The translations under genes and the position numbers were made by a program. Below, piece after piece: positions 29,859 through 46,657 of a stretch of DNA of 47,287 nt; the first letter of the stretch is position 1; every line of letters begins with the position of its first letter. Under the pieces are notes generated by a model. The model saw only the letters and a program-made list of their open reading frames with translations, was not told the DNA's origin and searched no databases. Origin of the DNA: a virus; the IMG/VR virus record IMGVR_UViG_3300022925_000043, positions 1 through 47,287 of that record; one strand, written 5' to 3'.

Positions 29859-29886
29859 TGTATGAAGAACTTTTTTGAAAAAAAAA

Positions 29887-29916
29887 TCCCCACTAATGAA
29901 CTTAATCAAAAGTGGG
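29887..29916 (-). terminator. Terminator after phoH
   Basis: Stem CCCCACT (29887-29893) / AGTGGGG (29910-29916) with a long T run on the coding strand (plus-strand A run 29873-29885). A strong intrinsic terminator 39 bases past the phoH stop. Confidence 0.8.
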
Positions 29917-29954
29917 GAAGTACACCTCTAAGGTAGCTGCCGTCAAGGATATCT

Positions 29955-30620: not shown

Positions 30621-30625
30621 TTGTT

Positions 30626-30970: not shown

Positions 30971-31032
30971 AGTATAAAATGTTTAATCGTTATTATGTAT
31001 AAGTAGTATGTATGGTTATTAATTAGTTAAAT

Positions 31033-31926: not shown

Positions 31927-31953
31927 TAATCATTTGTTTAGATATAAATATTG

Positions 31954-32394: not shown

Positions 32395-33071
32395 ATTTCA
32401 ATCACATTTCCGTTAGATGTTAATTTACCAAATCTACCATCTTTCATTACTGAACCATTTGAGAAGATTGTATCTAATCCACTTAATTTCATAGTTCCCT
32501 GATTGATGATATCTTGGTGATTGTGGATATGTCCGAATAAAACCAATTTAGGATTTACTTCCATTACTCTATTGAGTAGTGATTTATCACCACATCTTTC
32601 TAAGTTACCACTTCTATCCAAAGATAAATCTAAGATACCTTTTGGAGGTCCGTGAGTAACAATGATATCCACATCTTCATCAACATAGTTTCTCCAAAAT
32701 CTTTCTAACTTATTTCTATCTTTGTTGAAAGCCCACCCATATCCAAATGTTGGAGTATGTGGTGAACCGAAGATTTTAATTCCATCAATGATAACATCTT
32801 CGTTTTCTAAGTAGAGGATATTGTGTCTTGCGAAATCTTCTGAGGTTACGAATTTGTTTTCAATAGAAGTATCGTGATTTCCGGCAACAAAAATCTTATA
32901 CGGAATCTTTAGTGTACGATACCAATCAATAAAACCTCTTACCTCAACTTCGTTGTTATAAGGGTCTCTTGGATTAGAACAATCCCCACTAAAAATCACC
33001 ATATCAATATTTGCTGGAACTTCCAACAAATTGTGATAAGTGTGTGTATCTGATATGTGCCAGATTCTCAT
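32391..33071 (-). CDS. Calcineurin-like metallophosphoesterase
   Basis: 226 residues from the ATG at 33071 (MRIWHISDTHTYHN); a longer TTG frame exists to 33107. All five metal motifs are visible: ISDTH, VIFSGDCSN, FVAGNHDTS, IIVTHGPPKG and VLFGHIHNHQ. Such proteins cleave phosphodiesters or nucleotides; the class resembles phage phosphoesterases of the YfcE/MPP type. The stop overlaps the dCMP deaminase start by 4 bases. Confidence 0.88.
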   Translation of the reverse strand: MRIWHISDTHTYHNLLEVPANIDMVIFSGDCSNPRDPYNNEVEVRGFIDWYRTLKIPYKIFVAGNHDTSIENKFVTSEDFARHNILYLENEDVIIDGIKIFGSPHTPTFGYGWAFNKDRNKLERFWRNYVDEDVDIIVTHGPPKGILDLSLDRSGNLERCGDKSLLNRVMEVNPKLVLFGHIHNHQDIINQGTMKLSGLDTIFSNGSVMKDGRFGKLTSNGNVIEI

Positions 33072-33073
33072 AA

Positions 33074-33220
33074 CTAAATTCCTATTACTAATTCTTTGTT
33101 TAACCAACCAATGATGAGTTCTAAATCACCATTCAGATTTCTATTGTGTGTTAACTTCACAAAGGGTAAGATATACATCTGCCCCCATACTGAACATATT
33201 TCAAATTTTATTTTGCCCAT
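33074..33220 (-). CDS. Small hypothetical protein, 48 residues
   Basis: Read from the minus strand: ATG at 33220 (MGKIKFEICSVWGQMYILPF), then NGDLELIIGWLNKELVIGI and TAG at 33074. It overlaps the end of the Nmad1-like gene by 13 bases and ends two bases before the metallophosphoesterase ATG. The exact fit of the gap supports a real gene, although the length makes this uncertain. No recognised motif. Confidence 0.52.
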   Translation of the reverse strand: MGKIKFEICSVWGQMYILPFVKLTHNRNLNGDLELIIGWLNKELVIGI

Positions 33221-33570
33221 TTTCCTCGTTGAACAATTTGTGCGATGATACCATATACTGATAAATCTTCATAAGTATCTTGGATTGATTCACCCACTTC
33301 ATCGGGCTGTCCTAATACTACCAATTGTTTTAATCGTTGCACTTTATCGTTGATACGAAACCATAAACCAGTTAAGGATAGTTTCACATCATCATCAGTT
33401 TCCAATGGAGTTCCTACTGAAATGTTACCAGGTCCGTAGTTCCTTTGCTTCTTACAAAAGGTGATATACATTTCTTCTTGAATCTTTTTGAATTCATCCG
33501 TTGTGTTGGGATACATTCTCTCACAAAATTCAACTGCGGATTCTCCGTATTGTGGTGTTTCTTCGCTCAT
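33208..33570 (-). CDS. DUF1599 / Nmad1-like protein
   Basis: 120 residues with the family pattern ITFCKKQRNYGPGNISVG, then WFRINDKVQRLKQLV and SIQDTYEDLSVYGIIAQIVQ. The group (nucleotide modification associated domain 1, Nmad1) is found in phages and near hypermodified-DNA genes; it may act on modified nucleotides. A host-type promoter lies at 33590-33621. Together with dCMP deaminase and the phosphoesterase it forms a nucleotide-related operon. Family assignment by eye. Confidence 0.75.
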   Translation of the reverse strand: MSEETPQYGESAVEFCERMYPNTTDEFKKIQEEMYITFCKKQRNYGPGNISVGTPLETDDDVKLSLTGLWFRINDKVQRLKQLVVLGQPDEVGESIQDTYEDLSVYGIIAQIVQRGKWAK

Positions 33571-33589
33571 ACTATTTAATGTTTATGAA

Positions 33590-33621
33590 CAAATATACAA
33601 AAAATAATTGAGAGTTCCAAG
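33590..33621 (-). promoter_or_regulatory. Host-type promoter for nucleotide operon
   Basis: CTTG (33618-33621), 20-base spacer, TATATTTG (33590-33597) on the coding strand, 20 bases before the Nmad1-like ATG. Would drive Nmad1-like, the 48-residue gene, metallophosphoesterase and dCMP deaminase. Confidence 0.72.
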
Positions 33622-33730
33622 CCTTTTCAACTAAATTTACTAAATGTGAAATTATTTGATTTTTTTTTATCGTTTGGGGAAACTGGGGTATATCTATATA
33701 TACTGAAATAACATACTCTAAGGTGAAGCT

Positions 33731-33871
33731 ATGAGTTTAAACGCTTCCAAACTTCAATCAGAAACGATTGTTGGTTCAGATACATTTTTTATTTTTGAAT
33801 CTTCAGACAACAGAGACACGGTGCAAGACAAGACACTGTTTAAACTGTTTATAAGAAATAAATTAAAATAA
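33731..33871 (+). CDS. Possible small plus-strand ORF
   Basis: 46 codons from an ATG preceded by AGGTGAAGCT: MSLNASKLQSETIVGSDTFF, then IFESSDNRDTVQDKTLFKLF and IRNKLK, stop TAA. It runs against the surrounding minus-strand genes, but a TTTG-N20-TATATACT promoter-like element sits 27-58 bases upstream with the same 20-base spacer as the host-type promoters. It could equally be a noncoding RNA. Weakly supported. Confidence 0.25.
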   Translation: MSLNASKLQSETIVGSDTFFIFESSDNRDTVQDKTLFKLFIRNKLK

Positions 33872-33888
33872 AAATTTAGACAAGACAA

Positions 33889-34125
33889 CTAAAGCACTTC
33901 ATAAGAGAATTTATCAATTCTTCTTACTACTCTATAAACTCTTGCAGATGGGTCCTCATTATCCAACTCATCTCTTTTAGATTGAGCTTCTTCAATAGTA
34001 TCATATTCATCTAACGTATCTTCTGCGTTTAGTTTATAAACCCATATTTGTCTTTTAGCCCAATTAGGGTCTCCAGCGTTTGTATCAACTGCTACTAATT
34101 GTTTTTGTACTGCGTATTCTTTCAT
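33889..34125 (-). CDS. Small hypothetical protein
   Basis: 78 residues (YAVQKQLVAVDTNAGDPNWA, KRQIWVYKLNAEDTLDEYDT, SARVYRVVRRIDKFSYEVL). A GATATTTATATAA motif lies about 19 bases before the ATG (34144-34153), overlapping the stop of the module B barrel gene. The pattern of strands and one helix suggests a small single-domain protein. Unknown role, probably late by its promoter motif. Confidence 0.64.
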   Translation of the reverse strand: MKEYAVQKQLVAVDTNAGDPNWAKRQIWVYKLNAEDTLDEYDTIEEAQSKRDELDNEDPSARVYRVVRRIDKFSYEVL

Positions 34126-34152
34126 TGTGATTTCTTTATTTTATATAAATAT

Positions 34153-35502
34153 CTAAAAAGGTAGTTTTGTACCTATCATAAAAGATTTGATAAGTGGTAT
34201 GATTGGGTTTGTAGATTTAATAAATGTTGCTCCCACATTAACTGAGAACCTTTTTGTTAATTGTAATGTGAATGAATTTGCAAGAATCACCATTCCATCT
34301 ATCCGAGTTCCCTTCAGTTGATTTTGTAAATCAAACCTACCCATATATGGTGATTGTGTCCAAATGAATGCAGGTGTATATTGTATTCTAGGTGATATCA
34401 TAACCATATTCGTATAAAGTAAGTTATATCCTAACATTGTCATTTGATACTTACCCTCACTAAACATATTTACCATACTTATACCAACTCCAGCTGTTCC
34501 CCACTTACCCATTGGTTTTAATTTGTTTACCGAAGCAACAATTGTACCATTACCAAAGTTATTCATATATCCCACACTTGCGGATGTAATTGATGATACT
34601 TTAGGTTGAGGTGGTGTTATTGGGTCTTTTGTAGTTACAACACTACCCTTTGCATAATGTGAATGGTCTTGATGTATTAATTGAGATACATTAAATTTCT
34701 GCATGTGAACTTTGGTATAAGAACCATTAAGAGCAAATTGTTTTAGATTAGAATAAATCATAGCAGTTGCTCCATAGGTTACATCTCCAAAGATTGAGGA
34801 TTGGGTTACCCCAAATGATATTACCGCATCATAGTTACCTAATAGAGCTTGATTAACCATCATATCTGCTCTGAGTTGAATTGGTAACATTTCAGTTTTC
34901 TTCTTTTTCTTTTCTTCTTCTACTTCTTCAGATTCTTCTCCATCTCCATCATCTGAACTATTCTCATCATCAGTTCCTTCTTCCGATGATTCTTCATTTG
35001 TTGATTCACCATCGCCTCCTTCACTCTCCGTTGATTTACCTTCACTCTCATTAGATTCAGTTGAATTTGATGAATTAGTATCAGTACCCTCAGTAGAAGT
35101 AACCTCATTTGTTGTTTGATTTGTTGCATTTGTTGTCCCTCCATTTGTTGCGGATGTAGCAGTTGAAGCAGCAGTAGATGCCGTAGATGCCGCCTGAGTA
35201 GCATTTTGGGCTGTTTGTTGTGCTTGTTGTGCTTGTTGAGTTGATTGAGAACATGGTGATAATGTATTCCACCATTCGTAAGTTTCAATCAACCATTGGT
35301 TTAATGTACCATTTGTAAATTCCGTATAAGTAAAGGTTCGTATCTTATTATAAAATGCTACAGTAGCCGAACCATTTACAAAGTTAGCAGTAACAACCTT
35401 TACTTCTCCCGTACATCTATCTACAAATGTTTGAGTAAAGGTTGTTTGTGCATAAGTTGAACCACTTATAATCAGAAATAATATTATAAGAAGTTTTTTC
35501 AT
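34153..35502 (-). CDS. Module B: outer-membrane-barrel-like protein with acidic linker
   Basis: 449 residues with a signal peptide (KKLLIILFLIISGSTYA). Residues 19-88 carry the two-Cys domain (FVDRCTGEVKV ... NTLSPCSQ) seen in the module A protein. Residues ~90-200 are Gln/Ala/Thr-rich then Ser/Glu/Asp/Gly-rich, ending in KKKKK. The last ~245 residues have alternating beta strands and aromatic girdles (SVGYMNNFGNGTIVASVNK, SFTLQLTKRFSVNVGATFIK) and end MIGTKLPF, near-identical in form to module A's MTGTKMLL. It is the last gene of module B and lies 3 bases after the CsgG-like stop. Confidence 0.8.
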   Translation of the reverse strand: MKKLLIILFLIISGSTYAQTTFTQTFVDRCTGEVKVVTANFVNGSATVAFYNKIRTFTYTEFTNGTLNQWLIETYEWWNTLSPCSQSTQQAQQAQQTAQNATQAASTASTAASTATSATNGGTTNATNQTTNEVTSTEGTDTNSSNSTESNESEGKSTESEGGDGESTNEESSEEGTDDENSSDDGDGEESEEVEEEKKKKKTEMLPIQLRADMMVNQALLGNYDAVISFGVTQSSIFGDVTYGATAMIYSNLKQFALNGSYTKVHMQKFNVSQLIHQDHSHYAKGSVVTTKDPITPPQPKVSSITSASVGYMNNFGNGTIVASVNKLKPMGKWGTAGVGISMVNMFSEGKYQMTMLGYNLLYTNMVMISPRIQYTPAFIWTQSPYMGRFDLQNQLKGTRIDGMVILANSFTLQLTKRFSVNVGATFIKSTNPIIPLIKSFMIGTKLPF

Positions 35503-35505
35503 TCA

Positions 35506-36222
35506 TTAGTTTTCGAAGATACCCTTCTTAATCATTCTTGCCACAATTCTCGCTGAAGCAGTTTCCAATGCTTTACGAGTAGCAACTCCTATACCTGATT
35601 CTCTAAATGCGATTTCATCCACATCTAAACCAATTAAACCTTCTTGAGTTTTAACAGTCTTAGCATCCCCTAAACCAGACCCCACTAAGTATCTACCAGT
35701 CTCAGCATCAGTAAAACGAACTTGCAATCCTAATCGAGTTGTAGAAGTTTGTTTAGAACCGTCTTTAAGAGAAAGTACCTCATCTTCTGAAACTGAGAAA
35801 TCGTAAATCTCAATCGTTACAAAGTATTCAGCAAGAGTAATCTTACCCATACCATATACTTTATTTTCAGATACACCCTTACGAGATGCAACCCATTGTG
35901 ATTTCATTCTATCTTTAATTGTAGATTTTTCTTCTACAAACTCAAATCTATTTGTCCAATCCAAATATTCGATTACAATGTTAGTTAATCCCAATCCTAC
36001 TCTACCATCCCTTAACTCTGGATAAGTTCCGTACAACTCATCTGAGATACCTACATCGAGCAATGCAACAGGTAACATATCCCCATCATAATCGGAAACA
36101 TCATCGATAGATTTTTTCTTTTCAAATTCTGCAACATATTCTTCTGCTTTTATACTTCCTACTTGTGAAAAGGTGATTTGTGTTAGAAATACACATATCA
36201 ATAATAGTAATAATTTTTTCAT
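35506..36222 (-). CDS. Module B: CsgG-like curli secretion pore protein
   Basis: 238 residues from ATG 36222 (MKKLLLLLICVFLTQITFSQ); the frame to 36315 starts with TTG and overlaps the preceding gene, so I reject it. CsgG-like core: PELRDGRVGLGLTNIVIEYL, RFEFVEEKSTIKDRM, EYFVTIEIYDFSVSEDE, RLGLQVRFTDAETGRYLVGS, GIGVATRKALETASARIVAR. It aligns with the module A protein over the whole length. Unlike module A and E. coli CsgG, no Cys follows the signal peptide, so it may not be lipid-anchored. It lies between the 77-residue membrane gene and the barrel gene. Confidence 0.87.
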   Translation of the reverse strand: MKKLLLLLICVFLTQITFSQVGSIKAEEYVAEFEKKKSIDDVSDYDGDMLPVALLDVGISDELYGTYPELRDGRVGLGLTNIVIEYLDWTNRFEFVEEKSTIKDRMKSQWVASRKGVSENKVYGMGKITLAEYFVTIEIYDFSVSEDEVLSLKDGSKQTSTTRLGLQVRFTDAETGRYLVGSGLGDAKTVKTQEGLIGLDVDEIAFRESGIGVATRKALETASARIVARMIKKGIFEN

Positions 36223-36235
36223 TTTTTGTTTATAT

Positions 36236-36469
36236 TTAATGTGTTTCTTTAATATCTTTTGGTAATCTCCATCCATATAATTTACTTTGCCACGCATACC
36301 AAATAGCTCCGCCAAAAAACAATACTATCCATCCAATACCAACCCACTCATTATCTTTTGCATACGATTGAATATTATCATTTAACAATATAAAATTCAG
36401 TAAAGTTATGTGAAGTACGAAACCCCATATTTGACCCCACACTCTCCACCATTTTAAAAACTTTTTCAT
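36236..36469 (-). CDS. Module B: small two-TM protein
   Basis: 77 residues with two membrane segments (WGFVLHITLLNFILLND and WVGIGWIVLFFGGAIWYAW) and a basic end (LYGWRLPKDIKETH). It has no counterpart in module A. It sits between the single-TM gene and the CsgG-like gene, 13 bases before the latter. It may hold the pore partner in the inner membrane. Unrecognised. Confidence 0.7.
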   Translation of the reverse strand: MKKFLKWWRVWGQIWGFVLHITLLNFILLNDNIQSYAKDNEWVGIGWIVLFFGGAIWYAWQSKLYGWRLPKDIKETH

Positions 36470-36488
36470 ATAATTTAATTTAATTGAT

Positions 36489-36806
36489 TTACCAATCTAT
36501 TTCTTCCTCTTTTTCTTTTTTCCTCTTAACCGGAACTTCTTTAATAATTGTTTTAGTTTCTGTTGGTTTTTGTTCTGGAATATTGATGATAATTTCAGGT
36601 CCAGTTACATTAACTGATTGATTTTGTTCAGCCTTAACCTCAACCTGCTCAGTTTTCTCATCTTCTTCATCCGCAATACCAATGAACGTTTTTACCTCAT
36701 CCATAAACATTGTACCGATACCAGTTAAGATAACTCCAGCACCAGTTGCAATTTGATTCTTCATGTTTGAAAAGAATCCACCATTGTTTTCTGCTTCTTT
36801 ACTCAT
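36489..36806 (-). CDS. Module B: small single-TM protein with INIP...TII motif
   Basis: 105 residues. Membrane segment at about 18-43 (IATGAGVILTGIGTMFMDEV), an acidic stretch, then EIIINIPEQKPTETKTIIKE and a charged end. The module A gene at 18382 has the same order (TM, disordered, IINIP...TII). Its start overlaps the lipoprotein gene by ATGA. Conserved in both modules, so probably a core part of the system. Confidence 0.76.
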   Translation of the reverse strand: MSKEAENNGGFFSNMKNQIATGAGVILTGIGTMFMDEVKTFIGIADEEDEKTEQVEVKAEQNQSVNVTGPEIIINIPEQKPTETKTIIKEVPVKRKKEKEEEIDW

Positions 36807-37159
36807 AATTTTATAATTGTTTGTTTAATGATTTTGCTTTGGTTATCTTTAACCAAAAATTTGTAACTCCCTTTAGGTAATGCTTTAGTGTAAATTTGTA
36901 ATGAATTCACACCAGCTTTACCATTAACTTTTTCATTTGTGTAAGTTATGTTAGTAAAATCATCTATTAAAGATAATGTATATTCACCATTAGAATCGAA
37001 GTTTATAATAAACTCATCCCCATCACTTACAACTGTATTTTGTACTTCGAAAATATCCATATGTAATTCAGTATCGTTACCATATGGTTCAACCTCCATC
37101 AAATCAGCAGTACATCCAAACACTAATAAAAGTGGTAATATGTAAAATATCTTTTTCAT
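36803..37159 (-). CDS. Module B: lipoprotein resembling a stand-alone T9SS-type C-terminal domain
   Basis: 118 residues. Signal peptide with lipobox (KKIFYILPLLLVFGCTADL). The mature part ends with a beta sandwich like the T9SS type A sorting domain: EYTLSLIDDFTNITYTNEK, GVNSLQIYTKALPKGSYKFL and a terminal IIKQTIIKL. In module A a domain of this form is fused to the cohesin/dockerin protein, while the module B cohesin protein lacks it and this gene follows directly. It may be a split-off anchoring domain (inference). It shares one base with the upstream stop. Confidence 0.7.
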   Translation of the reverse strand: MKKIFYILPLLLVFGCTADLMEVEPYGNDTELHMDIFEVQNTVVSDGDEFIINFDSNGEYTLSLIDDFTNITYTNEKVNGKAGVNSLQIYTKALPKGSYKFLVKDNQSKIIKQTIIKL

Positions 37160-38913
37160 TATTCTATATTCATTTTAAGTTGTTCACCTCTTGCGTTAAC
37201 CGCATCAGTTGTTGAAAGAATAACCAATCCTAATGTGTTTTGTAACTGGATTGTTGGTGTAAATGTTAAGGTGTACTTTGTTGATGAATCCAAAAATTGA
37301 TTTTGAATTTGTACTAATGACCCAATATTAATATTATTACCTTTTAGATTACTAAAGTTAGTAGATGTGTTATTTGTTTTAAAATTGATATCATCAAATA
37401 CTAATCGATTTGAATCAAACCCAAGTTTATATTGTGCACCAATCACCTTTTGAGTACCTGGTTCCATTGTAATCGTTACTACAACTTTACCATCCACTAA
37501 TTCAGTAACTAATGTAGTAGATATCTGCCTTTCCTCTTTATTGGTTGCCTTAGCATATGATGGAATAAACTCTTTAGCTTGTTGAGCCGCAGCAGGGTCT
37601 GCTCCACTAACATCGGGTTCGGTAGAGTGTGATAGATTTACATCACCTCTCCAAGTTATTGCTGTTTCAAAATCAAATTGTAATGTGGTGTTATCCTTAT
37701 TATCCAACTCCGTCATCAATGTAGTTCCATTTACAATTTGAGGATAGTTTTCATTTGTTATCGTATCATATTGTGCTTTTGGATAGAACTTAGATGCATA
37801 AACCATAGCTTCTGGGTCTGTTAAATAACTCGTACCCTCAATTACATGCAATAACATCTGATAGGTATCATCGGAATTGAATGTACCATCTTGGTTAACA
37901 TCAGCATTCATAAATTGAACACCATAGTTGAATTCATTTCCAACTTCGTTACCACCAATACCACCATTGTTTAATTCAGCGAAAGCAAGGGCAACATCTG
38001 ATATAGTTACAATCTCATCATATTGTTCTGAGAATGGAATTGTGTAATCACCATTTTCAGTATCAACTACATAACCATCCCAATTTACAATTACCGCAAA
38101 ATCATCAGTTCTATTAAAACCTTGAGTAATATCCAATGTTCCAGTTGAAGATAGATTTCCATATGTTGCATATTGTGGCTGATACCAACTATTTGGTTCA
38201 TTTGGGTCTGGTGTATATAACCCACCATCAAATAGTATTGGGTCTAAACTAGCAGGAAATAAGACTTTGAATTGTGCACTCACAGTTGTAGATGGTGGAA
38301 CATTATCAAATGATTGATTTGGAAATGCGGTAATACTTGTAAAGTTATATGAAGTAGTATTATCTCTAACCGATGCCTTTCTTAGCATAGTAGATTGATT
38401 AAAATCAAATCCGTTTGGAACTTGCTTATACCTAAACTTTAATCTTGCCACAACACCATCCAATTCACCTGTTGTTTGTGAAGTTATTACCATCGGAGCA
38501 TCATCTGAGTTTTCATCTCCTACATATTCCCAATAATGGTCGGTGTAATATTGTCCATATAAATCATCTACATCTGCGGTAGTTGAATTATGAAAGATAT
38601 AAGATGAAGGCCATTGATTGGTGTACCAGTTACCATTAGTATTTGGATTATCAACTCCCAAATATTCAAATGCATCATTTTTAAAGGTTAACCAAATATC
38701 AGCATAAGTCACTATTCTTTCTGAGTTATCGGTATTACCAATTGTGATATCTAAATAAAACTCATCACCAATTTCCAAATCGGTAACTGGTGTTGTTTCT
38801 CCTTGCACAGGTTCGTTAATCAACCCTGCATAATCTAACGATATATTAATTTCTTGTGAGTACACACTTAGTGTACTTAGTACACATACTAAAAGAGTTA
38901 AAATTTTTTTCAT
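37159..38913 (-). CDS. Module B: secreted cohesin/dockerin-like protein
   Basis: 584 residues with a signal peptide (KKILTLLVCVLSTLSVYS). Cohesin-like regions at about 45-175 (TYADIWLTFKNDAFEYLGVD, GVVARLKFRYKQV) and 470-580 (KVIGAQYKLGFDSNRLVFDD). Between them a dockerin-like pair: VTISDVALAFAELNNGG and MNADVNQDGTFNSDDTYQML with a Ca-loop Asp pattern. Same order as the module A protein, but the C-terminal sorting domain is absent. The start overlaps the GVR gene as ATGA. A self-linking polymer is conceivable from having both partner domains. Confidence 0.82.
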   Translation of the reverse strand: MKKILTLLVCVLSTLSVYSQEINISLDYAGLINEPVQGETTPVTDLEIGDEFYLDITIGNTDNSERIVTYADIWLTFKNDAFEYLGVDNPNTNGNWYTNQWPSSYIFHNSTTADVDDLYGQYYTDHYWEYVGDENSDDAPMVITSQTTGELDGVVARLKFRYKQVPNGFDFNQSTMLRKASVRDNTTSYNFTSITAFPNQSFDNVPPSTTVSAQFKVLFPASLDPILFDGGLYTPDPNEPNSWYQPQYATYGNLSSTGTLDITQGFNRTDDFAVIVNWDGYVVDTENGDYTIPFSEQYDEIVTISDVALAFAELNNGGIGGNEVGNEFNYGVQFMNADVNQDGTFNSDDTYQMLLHVIEGTSYLTDPEAMVYASKFYPKAQYDTITNENYPQIVNGTTLMTELDNKDNTTLQFDFETAITWRGDVNLSHSTEPDVSGADPAAAQQAKEFIPSYAKATNKEERQISTTLVTELVDGKVVVTITMEPGTQKVIGAQYKLGFDSNRLVFDDINFKTNNTSTNFSNLKGNNINIGSLVQIQNQFLDSSTKYTLTFTPTIQLQNTLGLVILSTTDAVNARGEQLKMNIE

Positions 38914-39392
38914 AGTAAATCCTCAACTATTTGAACCAATACTTTCTTTAAAGCACTGGAGGCAGTTTGTTGGTTAAAACTACCATCGGATGCAACTACG
39001 AGTGTTGAGTTTGATATCTCCTTACTCACTCCCTTTTTCGTAACTCTCTTCTTTACTTTTTTTCCTTCTTGGAGTTCTCCAATTGCTATAATTTGAGTTG
39101 CTGAAACTTTGTTATGATAGATACCAATACTTTTTCCAATATTCTTTACATCAAAAAAGACTAAACGAATATTAATTTGAGTATCTGCACCATCCCATAA
39201 ATCATAATCTAAATCTATTAAGAGTTCTTCTAATATATTACGAACTCCCATAGAAAGATTAGAATTACCAGCGAAAGGACCTAATCGAATTTCGTTAGTA
39301 ACTTCCCCTATTTTAATTTCTTGTGAATGGGATTGATGAATAATCCCACATAATAGGAATAGATAAATTCCTATAAACTTTAAAGCACTCAT
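38910..39392 (-). CDS. Module B: small secreted GVR-motif protein
   Basis: 160 residues with a signal peptide (KFIGIYLFLLCGIIHQSHS). After it come EIRLGPFAGNSNLSMGVRNI, LEELLIDLDYDLWDGADTQI, a beta region and the helix TASSALKKVLVQIVEDLL. GVR plus an acidic helix and a final amphipathic helix repeat the module A gene at 14538. It opens module B, while its paralogue closes module A. A motif identical to that ahead of module A lies at 39501-39510, ~109 bases before the ATG. Confidence 0.75.
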   Translation of the reverse strand: MSALKFIGIYLFLLCGIIHQSHSQEIKIGEVTNEIRLGPFAGNSNLSMGVRNILEELLIDLDYDLWDGADTQINIRLVFFDVKNIGKSIGIYHNKVSATQIIAIGELQEGKKVKKRVTKKGVSKEISNSTLVVASDGSFNQQTASSALKKVLVQIVEDLL

Positions 39393-39500
39393 GTAATGAT
39401 ACTTTTTTGTTAAAGTAACAATTGAATAACTTAATAATGTAGACTATGTTGAGATAACGATTGGAATCATTGAGTAAAAGATACTAATCAATGAGTTTTT

Positions 39501-39510
39501 ATATAAGTAT
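39501..39510 (-). promoter_or_regulatory. Late-like motif ahead of CsgG module B
   Basis: ATATAAGTAT on the plus strand, 109 bases before the module B start, identical to 20826-20835. The ~100-base leader seems common to both modules. Confidence 0.5.
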
Positions 39511-39519
39511 AACTAAGTA

Positions 39520-40896
39520 TTAAATACCAATGGATTTTAATCTTAAAATTTCATCTTTGATTTTTTGATTAAATGGTGTCCAATTAAAATTAGTTAACAT
39601 CCAATCTCTATATGATGCAGGAATTTCTCTAACCTCTCTACCAGCAAACTTTCCAAAAGGCATTAAAACTTTACCACCTTCAGCAGCTTTTTCATGTGGA
39701 GATTTCTCACCTTCTATATGTAATCCAATCTCTTGAATAGGAATCCCAGTAAGGAGTTTCTTACCTTCTCCATACATTTTCCACATTGTACCTTCATCTT
39801 TAAAGTAGATATCTTCTACCTTACCAAATTTAGGTACGGCTCCTACAAAATCAACAACCAATCCTTCGGATTTGTTAGGGTGGATACGGGTAACCCTACC
39901 AACAAACTGATACCACCAACTCAGAGATGCGGTTGGTCTACCAGTAATAATACAATCTAACTCTGGGTAATCAAATCCAACTGTTAAAATATTAACTTGT
40001 GCAATACATCTCAATCTACCAGCTTTGAAATCTTCAATAATTTCGTTTCTCTCCTGCGGATGCATATCAGAATATACCGCTTTACAACTTGGAATCTTCT
40101 TTGTTAGTTCAATAGCTTCATCAATTGTGGGTACAGCTATAAGGATTGACTTTCTATTGTATAGTTCTTCCACCTTTTTAGCAATCTTATCACCGATTTT
40201 CTGGTTTTTATATGCTTTCTTAATAGATGAGTTGGAATATTCAGCACCAGTAGTATTATAAACTAAATCACCAGTATTGAAATCATAAGATTGATATTCC
40301 AGCTTACTCCAAAATCCCAACTCAACCATTTCTTGAATTTGGGCAACGTAAATAATCTTCTTAAAAAAGATACCTTTCTTAGAACGAGAGGTTAACATTA
40401 CTAATTTAGAGAAAGGTCTACCATCCTGTCCCATATTGGTTTGTAATTTCAGAGGTGTAGCAGTTAAACCCAACGTATGAACGATACCAGCACCCTTTAG
40501 GAAACGCCTAAGCATTCCGTTTGGTTCTCTGGGGAATCTATCACACTCATCAATTATAACCTTTGTAATCCCATATTCTTTGAACTTAGAAGCAATGTTA
40601 ACGATTGAACCGATTGTTGCATATGTAACATTACCAATCTCCTTTTCACCCATTGAAGCTGAATATATGGAAGCCTCCCCACCTAAATTAATAAATTTAG
40701 AATAGTTTTGCTCCAACAATTCTTTAGATGGTTGTATCACTAACAACTTCTCACCCACTCCCTTAGCGATTGCGGCAATAACAATTGACTTACCAAATGC
40801 GGTAGGTGCAACAATTATTGATGGTACTGGCTTCTTTTCATCGAAATACTCAATACCTAACCTTACTGGTTCAATTTGATTGGGTCTTAATTCCAT
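39520..40896 (-). CDS. uvsW: UvsW-like superfamily 2 helicase
   Basis: 458 residues. Helicase motifs in order: APTAFGKSIVIAAIA (Walker A form, ~30-45), VIIDECDRFP (motif II, DECD instead of DEAD), LGLTATPLK (III), LRCIAQVNILTVGFDYPELD (V) and WWYQFVGRVTRIHP (VI). The C-terminal tail MPFGKFAGREVREIPASYRD resembles the DUF3820-type (exonuclease X C-terminal) module. T4 UvsW unwinds branched DNA and R-loops and shifts replication to the recombination mode. A host-type promoter lies at 40937-40968. Confidence 0.85.
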   Translation of the reverse strand: MELRPNQIEPVRLGIEYFDEKKPVPSIIVAPTAFGKSIVIAAIAKGVGEKLLVIQPSKELLEQNYSKFINLGGEASIYSASMGEKEIGNVTYATIGSIVNIASKFKEYGITKVIIDECDRFPREPNGMLRRFLKGAGIVHTLGLTATPLKLQTNMGQDGRPFSKLVMLTSRSKKGIFFKKIIYVAQIQEMVELGFWSKLEYQSYDFNTGDLVYNTTGAEYSNSSIKKAYKNQKIGDKIAKKVEELYNRKSILIAVPTIDEAIELTKKIPSCKAVYSDMHPQERNEIIEDFKAGRLRCIAQVNILTVGFDYPELDCIITGRPTASLSWWYQFVGRVTRIHPNKSEGLVVDFVGAVPKFGKVEDIYFKDEGTMWKMYGEGKKLLTGIPIQEIGLHIEGEKSPHEKAAEGGKVLMPFGKFAGREVREIPASYRDWMLTNFNWTPFNQKIKDEILRLKSIGI

Positions 40897-40936
40897 ATAA
40901 CAATATTTTTTACACTATTATATAGTGTAAACATTA

Positions 40937-40968
40937 CAAATATACAAATAATTTTTTAAATAAACAAG
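40937..40968 (-). promoter_or_regulatory. Host-type promoter for helicase
   Basis: CTTG (40965-40968), 20-base spacer, TATATTTG (40937-40944) on the coding strand. Between it and the ATG lies the inverted repeat TTTACACTAT/ATAGTGTAAA (about 40910-40931), a candidate operator or leader hairpin. Confidence 0.72.
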
Positions 40969-41025
40969 CTTTATCTAATATTTTTTTAAAAGTTATTAAC
41001 AATGGTTAAAGTTTTCTTAAAAAAA

Positions 41026-41057
41026 TTTGGTTAGCTCAATATTTCTTTGTATATTTG
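41026..41057 (+). promoter_or_regulatory. Host-type promoter for TonB-dependent receptor
   Basis: TTTG (41026-41029), 20-base spacer, TATATTTG (41050-41057), 52 bases before the ATG at 41110. Divergent from the helicase promoter. Same form as the other host-type promoters here, so the receptor is probably an early gene. Confidence 0.75.
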
Positions 41058-41109
41058 TAACCAATTAAAAGATACAACTCACATTTGAGCTGTATTGGGT
41101 TATAATAAA

Positions 41110-43839
41110 ATGAACAAAACAAATTTAATTATGAAGCAAATTTTAGTTGGGGTAATGATGGTACTGACCACATTAACCTCATTCGGCCAAACTACTGGTA
41201 AGGTAGTGGAAGTTGGAACAAATGAACCATTACCGGGAGCAGCAATTGTTGTAAAGGGTACCACAATCGGAGCTATCTCTGATTTTGAAGGTAACTTTAC
41301 GGTGGATGCTGCGGAAGGTAGTGAAATCGTTATCTCATTTTTGGGATACGAAAATTTAGTAGGAACACTAACGAATGGAACTACATACACTTTAATATCA
41401 AGTAGAAATACATTGAGTGAAGTAGTAGTAACATCAGGTGTGATTGATATTGCTAAGGTAAGGGAAACCCCAGTAGCTGTATCAACTATCAGACCATCTG
41501 AGATTTCATTAAAGACTGGTAATCAAGAATTCCCAGAAATTATGAATCGCACGCCAGGTGTTTACGCTACTAAACAAGGTGGTGGTTATGGTGATTCTCG
41601 TATTAACCTTAGAGGTTTCGACCAAAGTAATACTTCAATTCTTATTAACGGACAGCCTGTTAATGATATGGAGAGTGGATGGGTATATTGGTCTAACTGG
41701 CAAGGTTTAACCGATGTAGCATCAGGTATCCAAATCCAAAGAGGTTTAGGTGCAACTCGATTAGCAGTTCCTTCGGTAGGTGGAACGATTTCAGTATTTA
41801 CCAAAGCAGCTGATAAGAAGAAGGGAACTTCATTGACTCAATCATTTGGTAATAATGGTTACTCTAAAACTACTGCTGTTTATAATAGTGGTAAGAGTGA
41901 AGATGGATGGGCAACATCTATTTTATTATCAAAATGGCAAGGTGATGGTTACATCTATGGTACTGCTGGTGAGGGGTATAACTACTTCACATCCGTTGGT
42001 TATGCACCAGAAGATTCAGACCACTCACTTAACTTTACATTCTTAGGAGCAGGTCAATGGCACCATCAGAGAACTTCTTGGGTATCTATTAGAGATTATC
42101 AAAACTTTGGTGAAGAAGGTATCGATAGACGTTGGAATTCAGATGCTGGATTTAGAGGTGGTGAAGAATTCAACATGAGAAGAAACTTCTACAACAAACC
42201 ATTAGCAACAATCAACTGGGATTGGGAGATTTCGGATAACTTAAAATTGAATACTTCTCTATATGGTTCAGCCGGTAGAGGTGGTGGTACAGGTCCTCGT
42301 GGAAATAACTTCCGTAGTAGTGTGGCTGATTATTCACCATACCAAAAAGACCTTACCGAACACTATTTGGAAAATGGTAGGGGAGCAAGAGATGCAAACG
42401 GATTCGTTGATTTCGATGCAATCGTAGCAAACAACATCGCTACTACCAATGGATACACTGGTGATATTAGTGGATTCGCTGGTCAGTTGATTGGTTCAAA
42501 CGGATTCAGAGATTCTAATGTGAATCGTTCAGTATTGGTAAGAAGAGCATCTATGAACTCACATGATTGGGTTGGTGGTATCTCTAACTTAGAGGGACAG
42601 TTTGGTAAATTCAAAACATCTATTGGTGTTGATTTACGTTCTTACAAAGGTTACCACTATCGTGTAATGAATGATTTGATGGGATTGGATGGTTACTACT
42701 CAACAGGTAATAAGAACTCAGCAGGTACAATCATCAACACAACTGTTGCAGCAACTCCGTTTACTGGAACTGGTTTAGATGGTCCTAAGATTGATTACTT
42801 CAACAATGGTATCGTTGGATGGCAAGGTGTGAATGGATTGGTTGAATACAATGATGATAAGAAATTAACAGCAGTATTACAAGGTGGTTATTCTAATCAA
42901 TCATTCCAAAGAGAAGATTTCTTCGATGTACCATCAGAACCTATTTCACAAATAGCTAATAGAGGTGGTGGATACGTTAAAGGTGGTGCTAACTTCAACA
43001 TTGATGAAAAATCAAATGTATTCTTTAACACCGGATTTATTTCTCGTCAACCTCAGTTTAACGCAATATTCCCTAATTATATTAATACTATTAACGATGA
43101 TATTGATAATGAAGAAATTACTTCATTTGAATTAGGTTATGGATACTTTGGTGATAACCTTACTCTTAATGTAAACGCATACTCTACATCTTGGGGTAAT
43201 CGTTTTATCACTCGTTCATTGTTTAATGGACAAGGTGATTTGGGTACTGCTCAATTTAGAGATATCGATGTTAATCACAAAGGTATTGAGATTGAAGCAA
43301 CATACAGACCAACTTCTCGTTTGAAGTTAGAAGGTATGGCTTCCATTGGTGATTGGAGATACACTAAGGATTTCACCTCAACTCTATTCGATGCTAACCA
43401 ACAAGAAATCGGAACAGGTACTCTTTACCTAAAAGATGCTAAGGTAGGTGATGCGGCTCAACTAACTGCTAACTTAAACGCAGAATATCGTATTGGTAAA
43501 TTTAATATCGATTTAGGTGGACGTTATGTAGATGGATTGTACGCTGATTATTCAATTGTTGATGAGGTATTCACAACACCGGATAACGCAGGTGCATTGA
43601 AACTACCATCATACTTCTTAGCAGATGCAGGTGTAACTACTCGTTTCAAATTATTTGATAACAACGTTACATTTAGAGTAAACATCAACAACTTATTTGA
43701 TGCTACTTACATCGCTGAATCAGAAACTAACATTCACGCTGATGAGAACTCAACTACTTGGAATGGTATTGATACTCGTAACTCAGTATGGTTTGGTTTC
43801 GGTAGAACTTGGAACGCTTCATTGAAGTACAACTTCTAA
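41110..43839 (+). CDS. TonB-dependent outer-membrane receptor
   Basis: 909 residues from the ATG at 41110 (a longer frame begins with TTG at 41095). A signal peptide ending TSFGQ, a carboxypeptidase-regulatory-like domain (~30-95; PLPGAAIVVKGTTIGAISDF, EGNFTVDAAEG), then a TonB-box-like SEVVVTSG, plug (PGVYATKQGGGYGDSRINLR, GFDQSNTSILINGQPVND, GGTISVFTK) and a large barrel to a C-terminal WNASLKYNF. This is the standard Flavobacteriia receptor layout, full length and intact. No SusD gene is nearby. It has a promoter (41026-41057) and terminator (43861-43890). It is the only long plus-strand gene here. Phage carriage is unusual; it may change host uptake or receptor display. Confidence 0.92.
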   Translation: MNKTNLIMKQILVGVMMVLTTLTSFGQTTGKVVEVGTNEPLPGAAIVVKGTTIGAISDFEGNFTVDAAEGSEIVISFLGYENLVGTLTNGTTYTLISSRNTLSEVVVTSGVIDIAKVRETPVAVSTIRPSEISLKTGNQEFPEIMNRTPGVYATKQGGGYGDSRINLRGFDQSNTSILINGQPVNDMESGWVYWSNWQGLTDVASGIQIQRGLGATRLAVPSVGGTISVFTKAADKKKGTSLTQSFGNNGYSKTTAVYNSGKSEDGWATSILLSKWQGDGYIYGTAGEGYNYFTSVGYAPEDSDHSLNFTFLGAGQWHHQRTSWVSIRDYQNFGEEGIDRRWNSDAGFRGGEEFNMRRNFYNKPLATINWDWEISDNLKLNTSLYGSAGRGGGTGPRGNNFRSSVADYSPYQKDLTEHYLENGRGARDANGFVDFDAIVANNIATTNGYTGDISGFAGQLIGSNGFRDSNVNRSVLVRRASMNSHDWVGGISNLEGQFGKFKTSIGVDLRSYKGYHYRVMNDLMGLDGYYSTGNKNSAGTIINTTVAATPFTGTGLDGPKIDYFNNGIVGWQGVNGLVEYNDDKKLTAVLQGGYSNQSFQREDFFDVPSEPISQIANRGGGYVKGGANFNIDEKSNVFFNTGFISRQPQFNAIFPNYINTINDDIDNEEITSFELGYGYFGDNLTLNVNAYSTSWGNRFITRSLFNGQGDLGTAQFRDIDVNHKGIEIEATYRPTSRLKLEGMASIGDWRYTKDFTSTLFDANQQEIGTGTLYLKDAKVGDAAQLTANLNAEYRIGKFNIDLGGRYVDGLYADYSIVDEVFTTPDNAGALKLPSYFLADAGVTTRFKLFDNNVTFRVNINNLFDATYIAESETNIHADENSTTWNGIDTRNSVWFGFGRTWNASLKYNF

Positions 43840-43860: not shown

Positions 43861-43890
43861 AAAGGGGATTCCGAAAGGTTTCCCCTTTTT
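43861..43890 (+). terminator. Terminator after TonB-dependent receptor
   Basis: Stem AAAGGGGA (43861-43868) / TCCCCTTT (43881-43888) with inner CC-GAAA-GG and a T run, 21 bases past the receptor stop. Confidence 0.78.
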
Positions 43891-43929
43891 TAATATAAAA
43901 GTAACTTACAATTATTAACTAAAATAAAA

Positions 43930-43953
43930 AACCCCACTTTAATCGGTGGGGTT
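43930..43953 (-). terminator. Bidirectional terminator
   Basis: Stem AACCCCAC / GTGGGGTT (43930-43937 with 43946-43953) between A-rich and T-rich flanks. It ends the minus-strand small-gene operon (stop at 43959) and backs up the receptor terminator. Confidence 0.75.
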
Positions 43954-43958
43954 TCTTT

Positions 43959-44198
43959 TTATATCCAATCTTCAAATGGATGTATCTCTTTAATCACAAT
44001 TGGCTCAGGCTTTACATATGGTGTTGGTTCATCATCATACTTAAACATTTCGGTTAAATACAATTTCCAATCTCTATTGAACTCATTCTCATATCTATCT
44101 ACCGATAAACTCTCTAATAACTTAACACTCTTCTGCTTAGTAGTATTCCTACGATGCATTCCCTTATCGTATTCATCTAATTCAAAATCATCAAACAT
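43959..44198 (-). CDS. Small hypothetical protein
   Basis: 79 residues from the ATG at 44198 (MFDDFELDEYDKGMHRRNTT); the frame to 44219 begins with TTG. Charged and helical, with RDWKLYLTEMFKYDDEPTPY and a C-terminus VIKEIHPFEDWI. No recognised family. Its stop is followed directly by the bidirectional terminator at 43930-43953, so it is the last gene of the small-gene operon. Confidence 0.66.
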   Translation of the reverse strand: MFDDFELDEYDKGMHRRNTTKQKSVKLLESLSVDRYENEFNRDWKLYLTEMFKYDDEPTPYVKPEPIVIKEIHPFEDWI

Positions 44199-44203
44199 AA
44201 CCT

Positions 44204-44626
44204 TTATTTTAATAACCAAGATGAAGATTGAACCTTATCACCCAATCCATCAATTAAACCAATACCTACTCGTTCACAAACTTCTTTTTCTGGAATGGTA
44301 TCATTGTTCTGGTCTCCACCATTGGCAAATAACAAATCATATTGTTCACCAAACATTTGTGAAAAGATTTCCAAAGTACTACATTGAGTAGAATCTTTAT
44401 CTTGTGAGATTAAAGCATAATCCACATAACGAATAGATTGAATAATCTCCAACCTCTCTAACTCATCCATAAATTCTTTTGAACCCTTTAACTCTCTTTG
44501 TAAATTGGAGTTCACAATCACCCAAAGTTTATCCCCTTGCTCTTTCGCTTTTCGGAACAACTCTAAGTGTCCTTTGTGTAATGGATTAAAGTATCCACTA
44601 ACTATTACTGCTTTTTGTTTTTCCAT
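44204..44626 (-). CDS. Cytidylyltransferase-like nucleotidyltransferase
   Basis: 140 residues. HxGH signature: AVIVSGYFNPLHKGHLELFR, then KLWVIVNSNLQ, FANGGDQNNDTIPEKE and SSSWLLK, the C-terminal ISSS-type motif. The fold is shared by glycerol-3-phosphate cytidylyltransferase, RfaE-type and NMN adenylyltransferases. It could make an activated sugar or polyol for surface glycans, or an NAD precursor. Substrate not decidable. Confidence 0.83.
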   Translation of the reverse strand: MEKQKAVIVSGYFNPLHKGHLELFRKAKEQGDKLWVIVNSNLQRELKGSKEFMDELERLEIIQSIRYVDYALISQDKDSTQCSTLEIFSQMFGEQYDLLFANGGDQNNDTIPEKEVCERVGIGLIDGLGDKVQSSSWLLK

Positions 44627-44631
44627 AACTT

Positions 44632-44853
44632 TTATTTTTTTTGTTTAACTAATCCAACTATCTTCCAAATTTGTATCGATATTACCACACCATTTAAAAA
44701 TAGTAATGATGGTTGGTTCGTAAACACCGCATATATGAACCATAGGATGGAACCTAACATACTTACTCCCCTTAACCATATGATATCATCAATCAAAAAT
44801 GAAACGATGATTAACAGCGTTGCCGCCCAACTTATAATCTCCAATATACTCAT
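44632..44853 (-). CDS. Small multi-TM protein
   Basis: 73 residues, three hydrophobic helices (LEIISWAATLLIIVSFLIDD, GVSMLGSILWFIYAVFTN, LLFLNGVVISIQIWKIVGLV). The layout recalls the small YgjV/SemiSWEET-type membrane proteins, but at this length I cannot separate them. An AAGGAG stretch lies three bases before the ATG. It is in the operon with the nucleotidyltransferase. Confidence 0.7.
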   Translation of the reverse strand: MSILEIISWAATLLIIVSFLIDDIIWLRGVSMLGSILWFIYAVFTNQPSLLFLNGVVISIQIWKIVGLVKQKK

Positions 44854-44979
44854 AATCTCCTTTTGTGTTGGTGGGAACCGAATCCCCCCTATTACTTTAC
44901 TTACTATCTGTCTTTAAAAAATTTACATCGGTGTCGAAGAAAAAAGAAAATTTCGTCTTTCCTTGATTTTTTATGATAG

Positions 44980-45108
44980 TTACAACTTAATCTTCCAACG
45001 ATTACGCTTATCAGCAGTTGTAAACTTATGTGATATAATTCTAATCAATTCCCCCATTGGGTTGTTTGCTATATATCTTGTTCTTGATTTATTAGGTATC
45101 GCCTTCAT
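44980..45108 (-). CDS. Small basic protein, 42 residues
   Basis: Read from the minus strand: ATG at 45108 (MKAIPNKSRTRYIANNPMGE), then LIRIISHKFTTADKRNRWKI and KL, TAA at 44980. The upstream gene's stop is at 45110-45112, one base before this ATG, so translation would be coupled. Very basic; may bind nucleic acid. Unrecognised. Confidence 0.55.
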   Translation of the reverse strand: MKAIPNKSRTRYIANNPMGELIRIISHKFTTADKRNRWKIKL

Positions 45109-45109
45109 A

Positions 45110-45358
45110 TTATCTTCTTCCTTTGGGTATCACCTTAGTTATCTTAGCCTTAACTCCCTTAGATGGTGGTACATCCTTAACCTCCTTTGGTTGTGGGTAA
45201 TCTATCCATACCAAGCCAAAGAATAAATTAGCCATCATCCTACGGAACCAATTAGGTTTAGTAGTAAGAGAGAATGAAATAAAGTTATCTTCATCCCCTA
45301 TCTTCCATTCACCAATAGCTTTATTAGGAGTAGGTTTACTTTTCATTTGATTTTCCAT
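45110..45358 (-). CDS. Small basic hypothetical protein
   Basis: 82 residues (an alternative ATG at 45346 would remove four). KPTPNKAIGEWKIGDEDNFI and WFRRMMANLFFGLVWIDYPQ include one short hydrophobic stretch; the end is very basic (GVKAKITKVIPKGRR). It may touch the membrane or nucleic acid. It lies just after the 87-residue gene at 45365 in the operon. Confidence 0.6.
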   Translation of the reverse strand: MENQMKSKPTPNKAIGEWKIGDEDNFISFSLTTKPNWFRRMMANLFFGLVWIDYPQPKEVKDVPPSKGVKAKITKVIPKGRR

Positions 45359-45364
45359 TGTACT

Positions 45365-45628
45365 TTAATTTATTTTAGTTGGATAACATTCAATCATCAT
45401 ATCCAATATTGTTTCACATAGCTCGTATTCACTCAGTTCTTCCATACGGATAAGTAATCGTTGAAGGGAACGTAAGGGAATCAACTCTCTAATCGTTGTA
45501 CTCCTTATACTCCCTTGACGATAACATCCCAATACCCAATTAAGATGAGTTACCTTACTGAATAGAAGGGAATCGATATCATCCGTATCCCCATACTCCC
45601 CTATATAATAGTATTCCTCTGAATTCAT
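45365..45628 (-). CDS. Small hypothetical protein
   Basis: 87 residues from the ATG at 45628 (MNSEEYYYIGEYGDTDDIDS); the frame to 45667 begins with TTG and overlaps the preceding gene. The C-terminal half (RELIPLRSLQRLLIRMEELS) resembles the end of the 114-residue protein at 30626. A TATTTATA motif (plus strand 45632-45640) touches the start. Unknown function. Confidence 0.62.
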   Translation of the reverse strand: MNSEEYYYIGEYGDTDDIDSLLFSKVTHLNWVLGCYRQGSIRSTTIRELIPLRSLQRLLIRMEELSEYELCETILDMMIECYPTKIN

Positions 45629-45659
45629 ATGTATAAATAGTATAGGTACTGAGGAACAA

Positions 45660-45800
45660 TCACACAACCTTAGAGTTTACTTCCATCAATTCTTTAATGG
45701 CTTGGTTACATTCAAATACATATTTCATATCACCCTCCATTATTCCTTTCTTCTTTTGATAACTCCACCAAGCTAACTCTTCATTGATATCTTTACTCAT
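45660..45800 (-). CDS. Small hypothetical protein, 46 residues
   Basis: ATG at 45800 (MSKDINEELAWWSYQKKKGI), ending NQAIKELMEVNSKVV. I prefer this start to the upstream GTG (45854) or ATG (45830), because those would run deep into the small gene at 45793-45906; the overlap with that gene's stop is then a normal 8 bases. Helical. Unknown function. Confidence 0.58.
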   Translation of the reverse strand: MSKDINEELAWWSYQKKKGIMEGDMKYVFECNQAIKELMEVNSKVV

Positions 45801-45906
45801 CCTTCTCTTTATTTTTTTCTTTATACTCATACCATAGTGGATTGGGTAATTCACTATAATGGTCCCATAGTCCTTCTTCTACTATATCCTTTTCTTTATC
45901 CTCCAT
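45793..45906 (-). CDS. Small acidic protein, 37 residues
   Basis: Read from the minus strand: ATG at 45906 (MEDKEKDIVEEGLWDHYSEL), then PNPLWYEYKEKNKEKDE and TAA at 45793. It starts one base after the 105-residue gene stop at 45908 and overlaps the next gene's ATG. The tight packing supports it. Unrecognised. Confidence 0.55.
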   Translation of the reverse strand: MEDKEKDIVEEGLWDHYSELPNPLWYEYKEKNKEKDE

Positions 45907-45907
45907 A

Positions 45908-46225
45908 TTACTTAATCCAATTATTTCCTTTTAAGAAATCTTTCCTTACCTTATTGAGTAGTTCTCTTTCCCACTCATAATAATAGCCTTTTTTCAATAC
46001 CTTCCAAAGAATTACTCTATCCTCATTACGAAGAATAAAGTAATCATCGCTCAAACATTCCTTAATCATCTTCTTTTGAGTATCCTTTAAGAAATTCCTT
46101 TCCTCCATTCCAAATGTATATTCATCTAACTCCGAAGATTCCATCGCTAAGATTTCCCTTTGCCATCCTTGCAACTCTATAAGAGCTTCTCTTTGTTTAC
46201 TTAATGTTTGTTCTTCAGTTTCCAT
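45908..46225 (-). CDS. Small helical hypothetical protein
   Basis: 105 residues, helical and charged (TLSKQREALIELQGWQREIL, ERNFLKDTQKKMIKECLSD, WERELLNKVRKDFLKGNNWI). No recognised family. It begins directly next to the 46226 gene's end. Its place suggests early expression from the promoter at 46674. Confidence 0.64.
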   Translation of the reverse strand: METEEQTLSKQREALIELQGWQREILAMESSELDEYTFGMEERNFLKDTQKKMIKECLSDDYFILRNEDRVILWKVLKKGYYYEWERELLNKVRKDFLKGNNWIK

Positions 46226-46444
46226 CTACCAAAAATCTTTAGCTTCTTTTTCGTTAATCTCTTTTAACCATTCCCACATCAAACCATTTTTGATTCGATT
46301 CTTTATCGTCATCCAATCTCCTTTAGATTCACAATACTCAAAATCTATAAGGATTTGGTTTGCCCTTCCCGCATCACCTACATCAGTAACCTCTGAGAGT
46401 ATCTCATACCATATACCTTTATATTGGAATTTGGGGTTCTTCAT
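46226..46444 (-). CDS. Small hypothetical protein
   Basis: 72 residues from the ATG at 46444 (MKNPKFQYKGIWYEILSEVT); a GTG at 46459 would add five residues. Beta start then helix (AGRANQILIDFEYCESKGDW, GLMWEWLKEINEKEAKDFW). Unrecognised. It lies between the first gene of the operon and the 105-residue gene. Confidence 0.62.
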   Translation of the reverse strand: MKNPKFQYKGIWYEILSEVTDVGDAGRANQILIDFEYCESKGDWMTIKNRIKNGLMWEWLKEINEKEAKDFW

Positions 46445-46465
46445 CTTCTCTACATTCACAATGGT

Positions 46466-46657
46466 TCAATTCTTCAATTCTTTAATCAACCAATCTATTA
46501 TAGGATGTAGTGAATTTATACTTGCCCTATATAAGGTATCTAACTTATCTATCTCTCTTATGATAGGTTCACTCTGAGTATCCGTTATATCTTCAATAAT
46601 AATATAACCATCACATATAGATATTATATTAGTTTCAGTCTCTATTTTAAAATTCAC
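46466..46657 (-). CDS. Small hypothetical protein with GTG start
   Basis: 63 residues from a GTG at 46657; an in-frame TAA at 46667-46669 forbids a longer frame, and the nearby ATG at 46659 runs straight into a stop. A beta start (NFKIETETNIISICDGYIII) and a helical end (DTLYRASINSLHPIIDWLIK). It is first in the small-gene operon and lies about 17 bases from the promoter at 46674-46705, so its leader is very short. Confidence 0.6.
   Translation of the reverse strand: MNFKIETETNIISICDGYIIIEDITDTQSEPIIREIDKLDTLYRASINSLHPIIDWLIKELKN

Follow-up and report, generated by a model that had tools for sequence, protein, structure and literature searches.

A TonB-dependent receptor family exchanged between marine Bacteroidota and their large phages, with a putative role in the uptake of nucleic-acid breakdown products

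The window, the 47,287-bp IMG/VR record analyzed here over its whole length, encodes an undamaged TonB-dependent receptor of 909 residues on a phage genome. Its relatives have been exchanged repeatedly between phages and cells, are held under purifying selection, and are linked in related phages to genes for secreted nucleases. We give a probability of about one half to the reading that this gene is a working TonB importer captured by large phages, with the breakdown products of extracellular nucleic acids as its cargo. A single-copy receptor of marine Bacteroidota would have been captured and exchanged many times by their large phages. We infer that, after infection, the phage would express the receptor from a host-type promoter and that the protein would be inserted into the outer membrane, where, powered by the host TonB, it would import small products, most likely nucleosides, nucleotides, short oligonucleotides or their phosphate. 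In related phages, co-encoded secreted nucleases would generate this cargo, to be fed into the phage-encoded nucleotide metabolism for DNA synthesis. Judged from its sequence, we rate the receptor as a phage auxiliary uptake gene.

The gene (41110-43839, plus strand) is predicted to encode, from its ATG, a signal peptide, a CarboxypepD_reg-like N-terminal extension (residues ~28-97), a TonB box region EVVVT (~104-108), a plug (~114-238) and a 22-strand barrel. An earlier sequence-only reading had described a full-length, undamaged receptor, which is borne out by the intact reading frame and by three Pfam domains above their cut-offs: CarbopepD_reg_2, Plug (PF07715, 50.4 bits against a cut-off of 23.9, residues 117-225) and TonB_dep_Rec_b-barrel (PF00593, 59.8 bits against 27). 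The stretch SEVVVTSGV at ~103-111, the TonB box ahead of the plug, is kept in phage and cellular copies. The start of the protein may be the second in-frame methionine at 41131 (MKQILVGVMM...), as in the collinear locus L059. Variants of about 840 residues without the N-terminal CarboxypepD-like domain are found both in phages and in cells (L026, L053, L073, L067 and many cellular loci).

The AlphaFold model (pLDDT 78) is a 22-strand barrel with a plug, and its best fold match is BtuB, with a Z-score of 34.4 over 530 residues. Since BtuB, Fiu, Cir and FhuA all match with Z-scores of 32-34, the comparison of the predicted model leaves B12, iron-siderophore and colicin receptors level and does not point to one substrate. 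The BtuB equivalog model TIGR01779 scores 53 bits, below its cut-off of 599.7, and the model of the SusC/RagA subfamily, TIGR04056, reaches 77.2 bits, far below its cut-off of 368.25. Profile scores thus place the present family outside SusC.

The first reading also held that the receptor is the only long gene on the plus strand and has a host-type promoter and a terminator of its own, and we found the same: it is the sole plus-strand ATG-start open reading frame of at least 120 residues in the 47,287 bp. A Bacteroidota-type promoter (41026-41057, plus strand) is present as a perfect TTTG-N20-TATATTTG about 52 bp 5' of the ATG; for the loose form of the pattern, 3.7 chance occurrences are expected in the window and seven are observed. 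Upstream of the collinear L059 receptor stands TTTGGTTATCTCAGGAATTATTCGTATCTTTG. A Rho-independent terminator (~43861-43893, plus strand), consisting of GGGGATTCCGAAAGGTTTCCCC followed by a T-run with a folding energy of -17.2 kcal/mol, ends the gene, and similar terminators lie 3' of the receptor in L059, L008, L026, L076 and L073. A second, two-way terminator (43926-43957) separates the receptor from the convergent operon that lies downstream and serves that operon. The terminators that had been described as flanking the gene are therefore confirmed on the 3' side, whereas the 5' side is a divergent promoter region with no terminator. The related motif TTTG-N16-19-TCGTATnTTTG was observed in the window, G001, G006, G010 and G011, nearly always no more than 300 bp upstream of a gene. 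All 13 occurrences in G001 are upstream of genes, against a shuffled expectation of 0.1, and the motif is likely the phages' own class of host-sigma promoter.

A cellular-type gene on the opposite strand, with a slightly higher G+C content (0.37-0.39 compared with ~0.33), could have entered the viral contig by chimeric assembly or host contamination. This concern, raised together with the first reading, could be answered without reads, as separate contigs are collinear across the junctions at about 41000 and 43950. L301/L312 are 99.975% identical to window positions 29523-41573 (12 kb), a stretch that crosses the left junction and enters the receptor, although L301 comes from metagenome 3300024301, possibly not independent of the sample behind the window. 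Both junctions are crossed with the same neighbors in L008/L303 (G001), L302 and L059 (G002). The receptor of L059/G002 (57,726 bp) is 74% identical to that of the window and the receptor of L008/G001 (252,603 bp) 71%, and both contigs are collinear on either side, with the helicase at 88-90% identity on one flank and the small-ORF block on the other; L302 (107,496 bp) agrees with G001 in this. Moreover, cellular copies from the GTDB scan reach no more than 72% identity, compared with up to 78% for phage copies. A chimera or contamination is thereby ruled out for practical purposes.

Because one open reading frame runs off the left end and terminal repeats are absent, the window covers part of a larger phage genome. 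Its tail genes (baseplate wedge phrog_219 and phrog_261), PhoH, dCMP deaminase, helicase (phrog_16) and other genes mark, by homology, a contractile-tailed phage. The nearest isolates with a Bacteroidota host are the Flavobacterium phages 'immuto', whose baseplate protein is only 37% identical. The phrog_16 DNA helicase (39520-40896, minus strand), the divergent neighbor of the receptor, is the gene conserved at 88-90% in the collinear G001 and G002. The small-ORF block 3' of the receptor (43959-46657, minus strand) is partly conserved and collinear in the same two contigs. Within it, 44204-44626 (minus strand) encodes a small cytidylyltransferase-like protein (PF01467; HldE-like phrog_7878), possibly a surface-sugar or cofactor gene; in G001, this nucleotidyltransferase is located elsewhere.

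Next to the receptor lies a minus-strand cassette of secreted proteins (34153-39392, comprising 38910-39392, 37159-38913, 36803-37159, 36489-36806, 35506-36315 and 34153-35502). It has a paralogous cassette at 14538-20724 (minus strand), and the proteins of both include cohesin/dockerin-like ones and ones rich in Gly/Ser or acidic residues. In the latter cassette, 18793-20724 (minus strand) has a weak cohesin match and a Por_Secre_tail score of 24.9 bits, slightly short of the cut-off (27), which suggests export via the host type IX system. The family of 35506-36315 is encoded on 251 viral contigs, and we found no known fold or function for it. By eye, 35506-36315 and 17639-18379 had looked like CsgG, which gained no support: there was no Pfam match in 22 members and none in the PDB by profile, and the single-sequence model of 17639-18379 had a fold too poor for comparison. 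The receptor and the secreted cassette are weakly associated in general, with 5 of 80 whichever of the two is taken as the starting point; they are close together in the window, G001, G002, L073, L026 and L426.

Relatives of the receptor were encoded on 124 viral contigs of IMG/VR in a first scan and on at least 138 with alignment. Most of these are jumbo-phage contigs of Bacteroidota, in which the receptor usually sits inside nucleotide-metabolism operons. At least two other genes with at least 50% identity to G001, G002, G006, G010 or G011 were found on 67 of the 80 best receptor contigs and at none of 80 cellular loci, a comparison in which the cellular flanks (3 kb) were shorter than the phage flanks (up to 10 kb). 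Terminase is present in the receptor contigs of 252,603 and 275,970 bp, most of the others being fragments in which the search found none; a contig of 297,164 bp also has the receptor. Two unannotated GenBank entries from the human gut, MT837128 and MT837399 ('Bacteriophage sp.'), encode full-length receptors of 34-36% identity, although their assignment to phages may be wrong and they could be bacterial.

This distribution modifies the earlier view of the gene as a lone moron-type cargo gain. Host origin, a promoter and terminator of its own and the character of a transferable unit stand, but the gene recurs on all those contigs and is co-directional with its neighbors in almost all of 46 dereplicated phage loci, being inverted only in the window, G001 and G002. 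Accordingly, an own promoter and terminator within an otherwise co-directional region characterize the window lineage, not most phage loci. As for a moron, close relatives lack the gene at the same site (L305-L308); a recent host donor could not be identified, the nearest cellular copy being 72% identical and the nearest phage copy 78%.

In marine Bacteroidota and Balneolota, the cellular relatives are receptors present in single copy. The hosts of this core receptor are marine Flavobacteriaceae, Roseivirga and Balneolaceae, and the copies have the same domains at mostly 60-72% identity. A relative at E 1e-100 was detected in 71 of 149 Flavobacteriaceae genomes. Phage and cellular copies form one orthologous family and are interleaved on the tree, with at least 8 to 13 label changes and 17 in a second tree. 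A single ancient capture by phages was rejected as a single phage clade (AU test, p = 0.00027). In the window, L059 and L008, the receptor occupies an identical site between conserved genes, yet a clade of the three receptors was rejected (AU test, p = 0.003), and with it strict vertical descent at this fixed site. Relative to the window, G006 has a receptor of 70% and a helicase of 64% identity, and G001 a receptor of 71% and a helicase of 88%. From the broken clade and this mismatch, receptor alleles appear to have been replaced in place. The nearest relative of the window receptor also changes along the gene, and intragenic recombination could contribute to the phylogeny.

Pairwise dN/dS between phage copies is 0.09-0.22, where pairs with dS above 1 are near saturation, and 0.09-0.21 for close pairs. 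The mean frequency of the commonest residue among phage copies is 0.82 in extracellular loops, with borders taken from the predicted model, 0.80 in barrel strands and highest, 0.92, in the plug. Conserved loops and purifying selection have, as far as the model defines the loops, the look of a working transporter. A comparison of phage with cellular copies, both of which have conserved extracellular loops, revealed no convincing phage-specific residues, only one Y/F column. It is improbable that the gene is a passenger without benefit to the phage. Its presence does vary among close relatives, as expected for a passenger, but it has stayed open under purifying selection in dozens of phages and has been acquired repeatedly from one cellular family.

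The closest clue to the cargo comes from the neighbors in related phages. A secreted S1/P1 nuclease (PF02265, E 2.5e-60), for which no PHROG match was found, is encoded directly 3' of the receptor and on the same strand in 14 of 80 loci. The reverse scan from S1/P1 gave 18 viral loci, of which L437 (a distant match with no phage-like neighbors) and L431 (cut at the contig end) were excluded. The receptor is upstream in 15 of the 16 informative loci, with L436 as the exception, and the gap is mostly 75-377 bp, extending to 1.8 kb in L012 and to 4.1 kb in L434, which has a receptor fragment only. These S1/P1-linked phage receptors belong to five groups with less than 80% identity. The same order in cells was seen in one genus, Candidatus Arcticimaribacter (L188/L189, gap 106-108 bp). 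An EEP nuclease near cellular copies is convergent on the opposite strand and was not counted as linkage. In L012, a 449-residue open reading frame from ~4900 fuses a secreted S1/P1 nuclease in frame to a thymidylate-kinase-like protein, either as a real fusion or through an assembly frameshift.

A secreted DNA/RNA non-specific endonuclease (Endonuclease_NS, PF01223) is encoded directly 5' of the receptor in L055, L063, L067, L074 and L423-L426. The order endonuclease, receptor, S1/P1 nuclease is complete in five loci (L055, L423-L426), and L063, L067 and L074 have the endonuclease-receptor pair. The endonuclease linkage is the weaker evidence because these phages often encode Endonuclease_NS whether or not they have the receptor (6 of 8 with it, 13 of 25 without). 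Nucleotide-metabolism genes follow: thymidylate-kinase-like (phrog_2107), GTP cyclohydrolase and MazG-like PRA-PH genes in L424, ribonucleotide reductase in L426 and IMP dehydrogenase in L013.

In the window, neither S1/P1 nor Endonuclease_NS is present, so the cargo proposed for its receptor is drawn from relatives. S1/P1 was also absent from all 33 long related contigs scanned, G001 and G006 among them, and the endonuclease of G001 is about 208 kb away from the receptor. The operon of L426, with endonuclease, receptor, S1/P1 and kinase genes, however, continues directly into two genes that have homologues in the window, at 40% identity for 38910-39392 and 27% for 37159-38913. These window genes are one gene away from the window receptor and thereby tie it to the nuclease module. 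With slightly less confidence than the importer reading itself, we propose that jumbo phages of Bacteroidota may carry a complete scavenging module (endonuclease, TonB receptor, S1/P1 nuclease and thymidylate-kinase-like protein) that would import extracellular nucleic acid, for instance DNA from lysed neighbors, for building phage genomes, and that the window phage would retain or borrow the receptor part.

The receptor might import another nutrient that relieves a growth limit, such as cobalamin, an iron complex, a peptide or a sugar, the nuclease linkage being incidental to its residence in a nucleotide-metabolism region. BtuB as the best fold match and the weak match to the TonB-B12 model are in line with this, as is the core cellular copy near pgi and general genes, and carbohydrate uptake was proposed earlier for a SusC-like megaphage receptor (PMC9723777). 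The position behind pgi (23 of 30 sampled Flavobacteriaceae) and not beside a nuclease also counts against a nucleic-acid cargo. We nevertheless regard another nutrient as rather unlikely: several receptor classes tie in the fold matches, it is secreted nucleases and enzymes of nucleotide metabolism that recur as partners, and no B12 or iron genes were seen beside phage copies, nor, in a scan of the neighbors with general models, a SusD-like partner.

The strongest rival is that the phage receptor replaces or outnumbers a host receptor and, by changing the surface, keeps competing phages from adsorbing, through superinfection exclusion or substitution of the receptor. The receptor-less members of the same phage group, L305-L308 (metagenomic, up to 270,865 bp), have at the receptor site, in identical inverted orientation, genes for a GT2 glycosyltransferase and an LpxH-like phosphoesterase together with a third gene, as read in G011 (168,635 bp) at 34108-37022; the site can be described as one that houses surface-altering cargo. 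In five other phage loci, a GT2 homologue is found no more than 3.5 kb from the receptor, and the allele swapping at the fixed site is as expected for genes of exclusion or host range. TonB receptors are well established as receptors of phages, and T5 guards FhuA with Llp (8a60 is among the fold matches). On the other hand, the loops of the phage copies are as conserved as the barrel strands, where a decoy or escape receptor should diverge, the retained TonB box is needed for transport and not for masking, and the S1/P1 linkage would find an explanation only if the nucleases acted on incoming DNA within the periplasm. Surface remodeling, which we hold possible at well under even odds, is compatible with nucleic-acid uptake, and both may hold. 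Between feeding the infected cell and replacing, masking or competing with the host receptor, which the first reading had left side by side, feeding has gained support. Uptake is favored over masking by the receptor position upstream of S1/P1 in relatives and by the endonuclease and nucleotide genes adjoining it there.

The usual view is that phage nucleotides derive from the degradation of the host chromosome and intracellular metabolic rewiring. If nucleic-acid uptake holds true, the infected cell would also be made to collect such material from its surroundings, with an energy-driven importer in the outer membrane as the route, and a function would be suggested for the core receptor of marine Bacteroidota. 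In a receptor family that passes repeatedly between hosts and phages, nutrient uptake and phage adsorption could come into conflict.

TonB receptors in phages are already known. The searchable open-licence literature yielded no report of a phage operon that joins the receptor to secreted nucleases, none of a receptor family that Bacteroidota and their jumbo phages have exchanged repeatedly, and none of replacement at a fixed site. Phage PA-2 encodes the Lc porin, an outer-membrane barrel protein that alters the host surface, as a barrel gene carried by a phage like the present one. Lc is a passive porin expressed in lysogeny, whereas the window gene encodes a predicted TonB-driven receptor, and none of the genes noted in the 47 kb is a lysogeny gene.

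The marine megaphage Mar_Mega_1 and LR745206 have a putative TonB-dependent receptor (SusC), for which carbohydrate uptake was proposed (PMC9723777). Like ours, it is found on a very large uncultivated phage and was thought to increase uptake during infection; it is labeled SusC in a single line of a gene list, whereas the present family recurs in many phages and is nuclease-linked. LR745206 matches only receptor residues 102-298, at 32% identity. The pelagiphage Skadi also has an annotated TonB-dependent receptor gene (PMC10504331), but Skadi is a small SAR11 phage with the gene among virion genes, read by its authors as a pointer to the adsorption receptor; we set it apart by this description only. 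Pelagimyophages and phage Melnitz encode CsgG/CsgF outer-membrane pores, for which uptake is one proposal (PMC7029224, PMC9004378). These are likewise outer-membrane channel genes, in marine T4-like phages, but of a different protein family, and the secreted neighbors of the receptor are not related to them by any match in Pfam or the PDB. Another counterpart is the cellular core TonB receptor, which is orthologous, has identical domains and is interleaved with the phage copies in the tree, and which differs in being chromosomal, single-copy and mostly without nuclease neighbors.
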